Below are positions 42,491 through 47,621 of a stretch of 47,862 bases of DNA, piece by piece. The first letter of the stretch is position 1. Each line of letters begins with the position of its first letter. The position numbers and the translations under genes are program-made. The DNA comes from Caldimicrobium sp. (lineage in GTDB: Bacteria > Desulfobacterota > Thermodesulfobacteria > Thermodesulfobacteriales > Thermodesulfobacteriaceae), in contig JANXDB010000050.1 in assembly GCA_025060015.1 (NCBI GenBank), positions 1-47,862 on the forward strand. The letters run 5' to 3'. The notes beneath the pieces are model-generated. The model ran no database searches. It saw only the letters and a list, made by a program, of their open reading frames with translations, and was not told where the DNA came from.

Positions 42491-42829
42491 TCATCTCCTT
42501 TTTTTATTCAAGAGGCCTTCATGGTGTCTAGATGGGACAACATTACAGTGAAGAGATTGATCCTTTAGCTCACATTTTGCCTTATAGAGATCAACTCCTT
42601 CAAGCCTTCCGGTGGCAGTGCAGTTAGAGACATGGCCCGTTTCTTCACAGGTCACAGACCCCTCGATGGTGAGATTTATAATGCCCGTGGCTGTGGCGTT
42701 TCTACAGTTGGGAAGAAAAGTATCATCAATGGTGACATTGGAGGCATCCATGGCACGCTTGCTCATACAATGGGCAATGGGCTCCTTTGCACAGGCCCTG
42801 ACAATGGGAAGAGCATAGGAGTAAACAGG
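42491..42829 (-). pseudogene. Headless pilin copy (silent cassette or truncated duplicate)
   Basis: Reading from 42829 to the TGA at 42491 gives about 112 codons homologous to the pilin gene just upstream. YSYALPIVRACA matches [11 protein letters not shown] of the pilin, and [19 protein letters not shown] in the pilin matches EGVDLYKAKCELKDQSLHC here. The N-terminal leader, cleavage site and hydrophobic helix are absent; an in-frame TAA sits directly before the homologous start (42832-42830). An internal ATG at 42766 gives a 91-residue frame, but without a hydrophobic N-terminus it could not be a pilin. The middle is divergent, with different Cys positions. It lies 22 bases after the pilin stop, same strand. 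Confidence 0.8.
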
Positions 42830-42854: not shown

Positions 42855-43298
42855 TTACTTGCCCACAACTGTGCATCTTACGGATTGATCTTTGTATTCA
42901 CATTTAGCCTGATAATCATCTACTCCATCGAGTGTAGCTACGGACAAAGTGGTTGTTTCGTTTGATACTGAGCCATCGCTTTGACAAGTGGGATTACCTA
43001 TTTCGGTAATTTTAACATTTCCACCTGCTGTTGATATTATATGGTTCGTGGTAGGACAATTAGGTGAGTTTGTGTTGCTTGGAGAGAATCGACCATTTGG
43101 GTTTTCCACGCACCATGAGGCAATATCCATAGCACAGGCCCTTGCAGCAGGCAGGGCATAGCTTGTTACTTTAGCCTTTCTTTGGTATTTCATGTACTGG
43201 GGGATGGCAATGCTTGCCAGGATGGCAATGATTGCAATAACAATGAGAAGCTCAATCAAGGTAAAACCTCCAACCTTGGACTCACTAACTCTACTCAT
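42855..43298 (-). CDS. pilA: Type IV pilin major-subunit-like protein
   Basis: This 147-residue prepilin has a short positively charged leader, the prepilin peptidase site GG|FTLIE (cleavage after G11, Glu5 of the mature protein) and a hydrophobic helix [26 protein letters not shown] globular domain with several Cys (two in the last 20 residues) follows. AAAGGAGG precedes the ATG. A strong sigma-70 promoter sits 83 bases upstream. No pilus assembly genes are in the window. A truncated copy follows downstream. Confidence 0.92.
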
Positions 43299-43542: not shown

Positions 43543-44034
43543 ATGAAGAAAAAGATTGCGCTATTTCTTGGTGTATCTCTTATTATGTTTTATCTCACAT
43601 TTCCCTTTAGCCTTCAAGCCTCAACAGGAAATCTTTCCTTTAACTCTTATGATGGTAAGAAATACCACTTTGCCGATTTCAAAGGGAAATACATCCTTCT
43701 CAATCTCTTTTCCAGCTATTGCCCTCCCTGTATGGTTGAGCTAAAGGTCCTGCAGAAACTAAACGAAACCTGCGATAACAACGGCCTTCAGATCATCTCT
43801 CTTATGATCGATCGTGACGGAGCACCTCTTCTTCCCAAAATAGTCTCCTCAAGAAACCTTACCTATCCTGTTGGGCTTGCCAATCAGGATATCCTAAAGC
43901 TCTTCTCCGACTTCTCCATAACACCCACTACCTATCTTCTTGATCCACAGGGCAAGAGAATTGAAAAGTTCGTGGGATACAAGAACTACAAAGAGTGGAC
44001 CCAGGCTTTAAGCAAATACGTCAAATGTAACTAA
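43543..44034 (+). CDS. TlpA/ResA-like periplasmic thioredoxin
   Basis: This 163-residue protein has a signal peptide (basic MKKK, hydrophobic 5-23, Ala-Ser at 26-27) and a thioredoxin fold with CPPC (Cys60, Cys63) in FSSYCPPCMVELKVL, then TPTTYLLDPQGK (cis-Pro) and a C-terminal helix. CPPC is typical of TlpA/DsbE proteins acting as reductants in the envelope. AAAAGGAGG precedes the ATG. It has no same-strand partner. Its 3' end overlaps selD by 4 bases on the opposite strand. Confidence 0.87.
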   Translation: MKKKIALFLGVSLIMFYLTFPFSLQASTGNLSFNSYDGKKYHFADFKGKYILLNLFSSYCPPCMVELKVLQKLNETCDNNGLQIISLMIDRDGAPLLPKIVSSRNLTYPVGLANQDILKLFSDFSITPTTYLLDPQGKRIEKFVGYKNYKEWTQALSKYVKCN

Positions 44035-45083
44035 GGGAGTATCTCAAGCCCTGGATCTCCCTCGGCAACCTCTCCCACAAGGAATAGAGAGTAAAAACCC
44101 CTCTCGAAATTCCTCCTTTCAAAGAGATCCTTTTTCTCCCTCGGGCAGGCTATAAGTAAGCCTCCTGAGGTTTGGGCATCGGCAAGGATGAAATGATCCT
44201 CCTCAGGGATTGAGGGGTGAATCGATAGTAGCTTCTCACAAAAGGCAAGGTTTTGATAATCTCCCTCCGGGATTATACCCATGCGGGCATACTCCCTTGC
44301 CTCTTTAATAAAGGGAATTCGATGGAGATAGAAGATAAATCTTTTGGAACTTGCTCTTGCCATCTCCAGAGCATGGCCTGTTAAGCCAAAACCTGTGATG
44401 TCTGTTGCAGAGCTGACCCCTACCTCAACCATCACCTCCGCAGGCACTCTATTTAGCTCAACCATGATGTTTACCATCCTCTGATAAAGAGGGCTCTTCT
44501 CGTCAAAAAGGCCTGCCTTAAAGGCCGTTGCCAAAATCCCAGTGCCTAGAGGTTTTGTAAGGTAAAGAAGGTCTCCAACTTTAGCTTCTCTATTGGTTAT
44601 TATTCTCTCAGGATGGGCAATTCCAATCAGTGCAAGACCGTATTTTGGTTGGGGATCATCTACACTGTGGCCTCCTACAAGGAGAGCACCTGCTTCCTTA
44701 ATCTTCGAAAGACCCCCTTCAAGGATTCTCTTTAAGACATCTCTTGACAGACCCTTCTTGGGAAAGGATATGAGATTCAGAGCAAGAAGGGGCTTTGCCC
44801 CTGTGACATAGATATCTGAGAGGGAATTAGCTACAGCTATCTGGCCAAAGACAAAGGGATCGTTTACCACAGGGGTGAAGAAATCTGCAGTAAAGACTAA
44901 AGCAAGTTCAGGACTAAGCCTAAAGATTGCAGCATCAGCTCCATTTTCAAAGCTCTGCAGGAGATCAGGATGCGAGGGCAGGGGAAGCTCTCTGAGAATC
45001 TCCTCCAGGAACTCCTGAGGAAGCTTTGCTGCTCAGCCTGAGGCGGTAACCATCTGGGTTAGCTTAAGTTCTGGCGCACTCAC
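44031..45083 (-). CDS. selD: Selenophosphate synthetase SelD, itself a selenoprotein (Sec17)
   Basis: SelD makes selenophosphate from selenide and ATP for Sec-tRNA. From the GTG at 45083 the frame runs to an in-frame TGA at 45035-45033, codon 17, within TASG-Sec-AAKLP. Known SelD enzymes have Cys or Sec exactly there, and the Lys three residues later (K20) is the conserved catalytic lysine, so TGA is read as selenocysteine. The frame then continues unbroken through ADFFTPVVNDP and VGGHSVDDPQPKYG to the TAG at 44031, 350 residues, a normal length. GGGAGA lies about 5 bases ahead of the GTG. A hairpin follows the TGA. Gene calls that stop at TGA would begin at 44870 and lose the active site. 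It overlaps mogA by 20 bp. Confidence 0.93.
45000..45035 (-). promoter_or_regulatory. Bacterial SECIS hairpin in selD
   Basis: After the TGA, 9 bases lead to CTTCCTCAGG, a 4-base loop AGTT and CCTGGAGGAG. These form a 10-bp stem with one mismatch and two G-U pairs. The loop begins 20 bases after the TGA, in the range used by SelB on bacterial SECIS elements, and has G and U at its centre. Confidence 0.75.
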
Positions 45084-45555
45084 TGGGTTCTCCCTTTATC
45101 TTGCTTACCGCATGGGAAATGAGTTCCCTAAGATGAGGCATGATCTCCTGTAGGGCTTTGGGGCTTCCTGGAAGGTTGATAACAAGGGTCCCACCCCTTA
45201 TACCAGCAAGGCCTCTGCTAAGAGCAGAAAGAGGGGTCTTGGGAAAACTGAGATACCTGATAAACTCAGCTATGCCTGGTATCTCCCTTTCAAGGATCTC
45301 TTTTGTGGCTTCAGGGGTGACATCTCTGGGATGAACACCAGTACCACCAGAGGTAAGAAGGAGGTCCACCTTTAGGTTATCGCAAAGATCTATCAGCTTT
45401 TCGATTATGAGAGGCTTTTCATCAGGCAAAAGGTCGTAGGCTGAGACTTCCCAGCCTTGATCTTTCAAAAACTCAACGAGGTATTTGCCAGAGAGATCTT
45501 CCCTTTCTCCTCTGCTTCCCTTATCACTCAGAACAAGGACAGCGCATTTTATCAT
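45064..45555 (-). CDS. mogA: Molybdopterin adenylyltransferase MogA
   Basis: This 163-residue enzyme adenylates molybdopterin before Mo or W insertion. The signatures are VLSDKGSRGEREDLSG near the start, LLTSGGTGVHPRDVTPEAT (67-84) and GIRGGTLVINLPGSPKAL (131-149). MoaB is a similar fold, and the two cannot be fully separated by eye. Its start overlaps the EF-G-like stop (ATGA) and its end overlaps selD, tying Mo-cofactor and selenium supply, as needed for formate dehydrogenases. Confidence 0.88.
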   Translation of the reverse strand: MIKCAVLVLSDKGSRGEREDLSGKYLVEFLKDQGWEVSAYDLLPDEKPLIIEKLIDLCDNLKVDLLLTSGGTGVHPRDVTPEATKEILEREIPGIAEFIRYLSFPKTPLSALSRGLAGIRGGTLVINLPGSPKALQEIMPHLRELISHAVSKIKGEPSECART

Positions 45556-47507
45556 TCCACAGCTTCCGCTTTGGCACGAGCAATCACTTTCTCAGCTACG
45601 AAAGGTGGAGCCTCTTCATAATGGGAAAACCTGCTGACAAAATAGCCCCTACCTGCCGTAAGACCGTTGAGAGTAACCACATATTCCAGAAGTTCAGCCA
45701 TAGGTGCCTGAGCCCTTATTTTAGTGTGTTTTCCTCTCTTTTCAAGGTTAAGGACTCTTCCCCTTTTTGAATTGAGATCCCCGATGACCTCTCCCACGGT
45801 ATCGTCAGGCACAAAGATTTCAAGCTCCATAAAAGGCTCAAGAAGCACGGCATTTGCCTGTTCTAAAGCCTTTTTGAGACAGTGAAAGGCTGCGATCTTA
45901 AAGGCAAGATCTGAAGAGTCCACCTCATGGGATTTACCATCATAAAACTGCACTTTAATGTCCACCACAGGAAATCCTGCCAAAATGCCCTTTTCCATAG
46001 CTTCTCTCACCCCCTTTTCCACTGCAGGCACAAAGTTCCTTGGAACATTCATCCCTGTCAAGGTCTCGATGAATTCAAACCCCTTTCCCCTCTCCAAGGG
46101 GGATACATGGAAATGCACCTCTGCAAATTGACCTCTGCCCCCGCTCTGTTTCTTATGCCTGTATATCACTCCCTGTATGCCCTTTTTAATGGTCTCCCTG
46201 TATGGCACTTTAGGAAGACTGGTTTTAACCTTCACGCCGTATTTCTCCCTAAGCTTTTCTACGGTTTTTTCTATGTGGATCTTACCTAAACCTGAAACCA
46301 AAAGTTCCCTTGTTTCATCATGGCGAAAGAAGTAAAGGGAGGGATCCTCCTCCTTAAGCTTAGCAATGGCTCCGCTTATTTTGTCTTCGTCTGCTCTGGT
46401 TTCAGGAATAAGAGCCAAGGTAAACATGGGAGTTGGCATATCAGGGGAGGGTAGGGCCTCCTTTAGGGGTTCTGAGGAAAAGGTATCGCCAGTTTTTAGA
46501 GCTTCAACTTTGGAAAAGACCACTATTTCTCCTTCGTTTATCTCCTTTGAAGCCTCTAAAGTGTCCCCTTTGGGAACTAAGACCTGAGTGTATTTTTCTT
46601 CCTTTCCTTGGGAGGTGTAAAGAAGATTGTCAGATTTGATGACGCCCTTTAAAACTCTTCCAAAGGATAGTTTTCCTGCATAGGGATCATAGAGGGTTTT
46701 AAAGACAAAGCCGTAGGAGCTTTGCTCTTTGAGTTCAAAGAACCTTCTTGAGGGATAAAACTCAGTCAATCTCTTTAAAAATAGTGGAATGCCGGCTCCT
46801 GTCAAAGCAGAACCGATGAAGATGGGAATTATCCTAAGATTTTCCAGGCTTAGTTTTAACCCCTCAGTGATTTCCTCTTTGGTGAGCTCCCCTGTCTCCA
46901 GATACTTTTCAATGAATTCATCCTTGGCTTCAGCGGTAACCTCCATCAGTTGTTCCCTTAGGGTCTTGATCTTTTCCCTGTATTTCTCAGGAGGCATGCC
47001 AAAGGTGATATCCTTTCCCTCTTCTTTTACTGAAGCATTTTCCAGAAGGTCTACTAAAGTAAGAGGAATAGCACTGTTAAAGCCATAGACCACGGGGATT
47101 TGTAGAGTTTCTATTAAGTCTTGTAGATCACATATGGTTTGAGCCCAAAGGTTTTTTTCGGAGTCTATTTTGTTCACAAAGGTTATTAAGGGAAGCCCTG
47201 CCTCACGGGAGATCTCAAAAATTCTGTAAGCATGGTATTTAACAGGGGCTGTGGAGTCTGCGATAAGGATTCCGAGATCTGCTACCGTTGAAGCCCATTT
47301 CAACTCTCCGATAAAGTTTTCATCCCCCGGGGTATCAATGAGATAAAGGGGCTCCCCTTTGAGAAGGCAACCATAGACGTTAATCGAGGTGGTGGGACCT
47401 TTTTTGGCACTTTTTGTTTTTGTTTGGGTTAGAAATAGGACCTTCTCAATAAACTGAGTTTTACCACTCTCTGAGGATCCAAAGACAGCTATTACTCGCC
47501 CTTTCAT
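45552..47507 (-). CDS. Elongation factor G-like GTPase (FusA2-type)
   Basis: This 651-residue protein resembles EF-G. It has the G-domain P-loop GSSESGKT (residues 9-16, an unusual variant of GHIDAGKT), a switch I region GPTTSI in place of RGITI, DTPGDENF and NKID. Domain II (YAGKLSFGRVLKG), domain III, domain IV (HKKQSGGRGQFAEV) and domain V (PMAELLEYVVTLNGLTAGRG) follow. The divergent G-domain argues for the EF-G-like paralogue rather than the main translocase. The ATG at 47507 is chosen because GGAGG lies 8 bases before it; a TTG at 47513 is too close. It heads the mogA-selD operon. Role unknown. Confidence 0.88.
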   Translation of the reverse strand: MKGRVIAVFGSSESGKTQFIEKVLFLTQTKTKSAKKGPTTSINVYGCLLKGEPLYLIDTPGDENFIGELKWASTVADLGILIADSTAPVKYHAYRIFEISREAGLPLITFVNKIDSEKNLWAQTICDLQDLIETLQIPVVYGFNSAIPLTLVDLLENASVKEEGKDITFGMPPEKYREKIKTLREQLMEVTAEAKDEFIEKYLETGELTKEEITEGLKLSLENLRIIPIFIGSALTGAGIPLFLKRLTEFYPSRRFFELKEQSSYGFVFKTLYDPYAGKLSFGRVLKGVIKSDNLLYTSQGKEEKYTQVLVPKGDTLEASKEINEGEIVVFSKVEALKTGDTFSSEPLKEALPSPDMPTPMFTLALIPETRADEDKISGAIAKLKEEDPSLYFFRHDETRELLVSGLGKIHIEKTVEKLREKYGVKVKTSLPKVPYRETIKKGIQGVIYRHKKQSGGRGQFAEVHFHVSPLERGKGFEFIETLTGMNVPRNFVPAVEKGVREAMEKGILAGFPVVDIKVQFYDGKSHEVDSSDLAFKIAAFHCLKKALEQANAVLLEPFMELEIFVPDDTVGEVIGDLNSKRGRVLNLEKRGKHTKIRAQAPMAELLEYVVTLNGLTAGRGYFVSRFSHYEEAPPFVAEKVIARAKAEAVE

Positions 47508-47621
47508 AGCCAAGACCTCCTTTTGTGAATAACTTTTAAAGCTTTAATTCTATTTTTTAGTCTTTTTAATATTATTTTAAAGATTCGTAAAAAGACAAGG
47601 TTTTTTTTTGAAAAGCCCGGT
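47508..47621 (-). promoter_or_regulatory. Upstream region of the EF-G-like operon
   Basis: AT-rich leader before the EF-G-like start. On the minus strand TTGTCT (47598-47593), an 18-bp spacer and TAATAT (47574-47569) form a modest promoter candidate, with AAAGGAGG before the ATG. The rest holds poly-A/T runs next to the IS end at 47622. No gene was seen. Confidence 0.35.

Follow-up and report, generated by a model that had tools for sequence, protein, structure and literature searches.

A selD gene with an in-frame TGA predicted to encode active-site selenocysteine in Caldimicrobium sp.

The window, by which we mean the whole 47,862-nucleotide stretch of DNA that was analysed, carries on its minus strand a gene for selenide-water dikinase (selenophosphate synthetase), selD. 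Two genes lie upstream of it on the same strand and a third converges on it from the other side (Table 1). Both upstream neighbours, the MogA/MoaB-type gene and the gene for the elongation factor G-like protein, are kept beside selD in most of the family. The predicted start at GTG 45083 is supported by a fair ribosome-binding site, AAAGGGAGAACCCA, of which a near form is found in relatives; indeed, near forms of AAAGGGAGA recur at the matching place in members of the family. selD is probably coupled to the gene ahead of it. Scans for promoter-like and terminator-like sequences gave results near shuffled expectation. Elsewhere in the window, a short open reading frame (ORF) at 42855-43298 (minus strand) has a type IV pilin-like N-terminus, and the C-terminal part of a further ORF at 42491-42766 (minus strand) resembles it, as if it were a partial copy.

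Table 1. Coordinates of selD, its signals and neighbours, and the second TGA-bearing gene of the genome
Feature	Position	Strand	Remarks
selD, selenide-water dikinase (selenophosphate synthetase)	44031..45083	-	350 residues; GTG start, TAG stop; codon 17 TGA = predicted Sec
TGA codon 17, predicted selenocysteine	45033..45035	-	on Cys17 of E. coli SelD
AAG codon 20	45024..45026	-	conserved Lys20 of SelD
Bacterial SECIS-type hairpin	45000..45023	-	bases 10-33 after TGA; 9 pairs plus one bulged G or one C-A
Hairpin loop AGTT	45013-45010	-	
AAAGGGAGA, ribosome-binding-site-like	45089..45097	-	ahead of GTG 45083; inferred from sequence
MogA/MoaB-type molybdenum cofactor gene	45064..45555	-	upstream; 20-base overlap with selD
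Elongation factor G-like protein	45552..47513	-	upstream of MogA/MoaB gene
TlpA/ResA-like thiol-disulfide oxidoreductase	43543..44034	+	convergent; ends overlap selD end by 4 bases
Formate dehydrogenase alpha subunit with TGA	L051:10-3366		one frame with N-terminal glutamate-synthase-small-subunit-like domain

Translation of the minus strand from 45083 to 44031 gives 350 residues, and the sole in-frame stop before the end is the TGA at codon 17, where the surrounding residues read TASG-U-AAK; the frame is as open as the preliminary description had it. The product matches the curated SelD equivalog model TIGR00476 over its full length (339 bits where the cut-off is 125, model positions 1-310 of 311), and its scores to the HypE, ThiL and PurM models are far lower. 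Pfam AIRS and AIRS_C domains are matched as well. Among solved SelD structures, that of E. coli (3u0o) is matched with 213 bits and that of Aquifex (2yye) with 203 bits. When the product is aligned with 3u0o, U17 falls on E. coli Cys17 and K20 on Lys20, and the SGCAAK of Aquifex SelD corresponds to SGUAAK here. The in-frame UGA therefore aligns with the Cys of homologues, as is expected of a bacterial selenoprotein gene, and the earlier placement of the TGA on the Cys/Sec position, with Lys20 retained, is borne out. Position 17 and Lys20 are, as we assume from established knowledge of SelD, the catalytic residues. The genome holds this one SelD only. ORF calling with standard stops yields only 44870-44031, a product of 279 aa that begins at GTG 44870, so that 71 codons are lost together with the active site, exactly as had been predicted.

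A 10-bp hairpin with the loop AGTT had also been proposed to follow the TGA. Both the hairpin and the loop are present, but only nine of the ten pairs form: the proposed stem (bases 10-19 with 24-33 past the TGA) combines nine standard pairs with one C-A, and the minimum-energy form of the stretch, at -10.9 kcal/mol, consists of nine pairs with a single G bulged out. Published rules for bacterial SECIS elements call for a loop of 3-9 bases with a G within the first two and situated 16-37 bases from the UGA, and for an energy of at most -7.5 kcal/mol (PMC13188914). The selD hairpin satisfies these rules, its AGUU loop sitting 19 bases from the UGA, and a competing hairpin further downstream is slightly more stable (-12.0 vs -10.9). 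The folding energy of the 51 bases from the TGA does not stand out from that of shuffled sequences (z +0.41), their best fold being another structure, and the hairpin window compared with synonymous recodings gives a z of -1.43. Rfam models at gathering thresholds found no match within the window. Taken alone, then, the selD hairpin is weak and unremarkable.

It is the comparison with relatives, rather than the single sequence, that supports the hairpin and puts it beyond chance. Against synonymous recodings, the hairpin window has a mean z of -4.2 in 20 sequences (our own and its nearest relatives); a second group of 18 gives -3.2 and a third, of 51 more remote sequences, -2.5, compared with averages of -0.2 to 0.0 for control windows within the same selD genes. 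Covariation was assessed in 28 distinct sequences over a register of eight pairs that joins bases 13-20 past the TGA to bases 24-31. In this register 91.5% of cells are paired, as against 33-60% in slid registers, a comparison that allows for relatedness. In shuffles, which ignore relatedness, the number of cells changed on both sides averages 14.4 and the covariation 0.169; the observed values are 33 and 0.376, and neither was reached in any of 500 shuffles. Compensatory changes are found in four of the eight pairs, one of which is A-U in 13 sequences and C-G in 13. The loop core across relatives is mostly GUU or GGA, bounded by a pair, which agrees with the published bacterial pattern N1-G-[G/U]-N-N2 (PMC13188914). 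In our own scan, the published SECIS rules were satisfied by 69 of 89 TGA-bearing selD genes, vs 23 of 135 control windows; the remaining 20 of the 89 failed them. Judged by these sequence comparisons, the hairpin after the TGA is a real conserved element.

The TGA itself is nearly universal in the phylum. We surveyed 119 genomes, comprising our own and relatives up to phylum level, with counts taken from the result table. SelD with one in-frame TGA was present in 109; one genome, G058, has TGC in its SelD gene, and nine yielded no SelD, so that the TGA form accounts for 109 of the 110 SelD-bearing genomes. In G109 the gene is split between two contigs. Wherever the locus was read, in our own genome and 88 others, the TGA occupies the identical codon (89/89). 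The closest named relative, Caldimicrobium sp. SKYB6, is 81% identical, which places the window in a Caldimicrobium-like bacterium of the Thermodesulfobacteriota.

A TGA of this kind calls for a selenocysteine apparatus, and the genome (1.60 Mb in 67 contigs, 99% complete) was searched for one family by family. The three genes whose absence would have told against the preliminary description, selA (591 bits), selB (398 bits) and selC, are all there, together in one genome as a bacterial selenoprotein demands. The tRNA-Sec scores 84 bits and has the anticodon TCA (UCA); the next three matches to the tRNA-Sec model are tRNA-Ser, tRNA-Ser and tRNA-Leu. The formate dehydrogenase with an in-frame TGA that had been suggested as a further check was likewise found: its alpha subunit (TIGR01591, 760 bits) contains a single TGA, within NNVDCPARVUHAPSVAG, the Sec site known from E. 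coli FdhF. No selenouridine synthase scored above cut-off in this genome, and selenophosphate, and hence SelD, therefore seems to serve Sec only. Together, the gene content would mean that this thermophile-related bacterium uses selenocysteine and has at least two selenoprotein genes.

Codon 17 of selD is thus almost certainly read as selenocysteine in the active site, a reading of the sequence that has four competitors. A true TGC or TGT could have been turned into TGA by an error of sequencing or assembly, SelD being a Cys form here as it commonly is elsewhere and as the TGC of G058 shows for this phylum. Such a misreading, which the preliminary description had itself allowed for, is ruled out because TGA-bearing SelD occurs in 108 other genomes of the phylum; each has a single TGA, at the identical codon in 88 of 88 read, and a covarying hairpin follows it. 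The error reading is already refuted, and its probability is negligible. Under the standard code the frame does break at codon 17, as a premature stop would break a pseudogene, but conservation extends to the residues on either side and, across the phylum, to the TGA itself, and no other stop is present. Moreover, this would be the sole SelD of a genome that has tRNA-Sec, selA and selB and, besides selD, another selenoprotein gene with a TGA; a pseudogene is extremely unlikely.

Mechanical ORF calling yields a product that starts downstream, for instance at GTG 44870, and leaves the TGA in untranslated sequence. That product lacks both residue 17 and Lys20, as well as a conserved DAA segment at residue 50. 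Conservation of the part upstream of it at the protein level extends over about 90 loci, and this part also aligns with the solved SelD structures; we give this start practically no credence. Finally, read-through of the UGA might insert Cys or Trp, with a selC*-type tRNA-Cys as one candidate, since a tRNA-Cys with tRNA-Sec structure has been reported in the phylum (PMC7609411) and one is seen in the relative G077. Here, however, the tRNA that best fits the tRNA-Sec model is a tRNA-Sec with TCA and the other three of the top four are tRNAs for Ser, Ser and Leu, in a genome with the full Sec set, which makes such read-through very improbable.

The best explanation overall, which we hold with little short of certainty, is that the selenophosphate synthetase encoded by selD is a selenoprotein in its own right. 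This earlier claim is supported by the open frame, the conserved TGA, the covarying hairpin, the complete Sec gene set and the second selenoprotein gene; from homology we infer Sec insertion, the binding of SelB and the activity of the enzyme. Ribosomes would start at GTG 45083, and the mRNA hairpin just past UGA codon 17 would bind SelB carrying Sec-tRNA-Sec, with the result that Sec would be inserted at this codon in place of termination. The Sec residue and Lys20 would make up the catalytic site, converting selenide and ATP to selenophosphate, which SelA would use to make Sec-tRNA-Sec, both for SelD and for at least one formate dehydrogenase. We also considered whether the two overlapping hairpins, being of similar strength, might switch and so adjust the insertion of Sec into SelD to the supply of selenium. 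This is most unlikely; if true, it would make SelD a self-limiting selenium switch.

Sec-containing SelD has been published for Deltaproteobacteria / Thermodesulfobacteriota, Clostridia and Pasteurellales, and the present case agrees with these in its single predicted Sec position, its coding-region SECIS just past the UGA and its Sec gene set; it differs in sequence divergence only and not in kind (PMC1794560, PMC4561486). The SelD proteins of E. coli (3u0o) and Aquifex aeolicus (2yye, 2zod) belong to the same family, with position 17 and Lys20 aligned, and have Cys at position 17 where Sec is predicted here. The formate dehydrogenase alpha subunit, a different enzyme from SelD, is TGA-bearing and of the E. 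coli FdhF type (motif RVUHAPSVAG), and stands here behind the glutamate-synthase-small-subunit-like part in one frame. Because Sec-containing SelD is a published and common selenoprotein of the phylum, nothing here is new in kind: this SelD is an ordinary member of a known selenoprotein. With plain gene calling SelD loses its active site, and since both Sec use and the miscalled SelD are standard knowledge for the phylum, the value lies in correct annotation, not discovery.

The Sec genes appear to travel together across the phylum, because G044 and G073, two of the genomes without SelD, also had no selA, no selB above cut-off and no ARAGORN-called tRNA-Sec among the best candidates. In G103 (99% complete), selA and selB both score above cut-off and no SelD was found, which may reflect a gap or an unusual selenium donor. 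Four genomes (G047, G050, G084 and G096) have two SelD genes apiece, both with TGA. In G077, a single contig that is 99% complete, we found TGA-SelD (L069), selB (L117) and tRNA-Sec(UCA) (L153); neither selA, by TIGR00474 or PF03841, nor SepSecS was found there. G107 (98%) and G082 (94%) are alike in having TGA-SelD, selB and tRNA-Sec without selA. SepSecS was sought in those genomes that have SelB and TGA-SelD and gave no selA match, and the one weak match fell in a frame whose sequence, in our judgement, is that of a DegT-type aminotransferase. The missing selA of these three genomes could be due to assembly gaps, a few missed genes being expected among about 110 genomes, or to an unknown Sec synthase. 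G077 also carries, at L159:1503-1593, a tRNA-Sec-shaped tRNA whose anticodon, GCA, is that of Cys; it scores 66 bits against the tRNA-Sec model and fits the selC* tRNA-Cys published from this phylum (PMC7609411).
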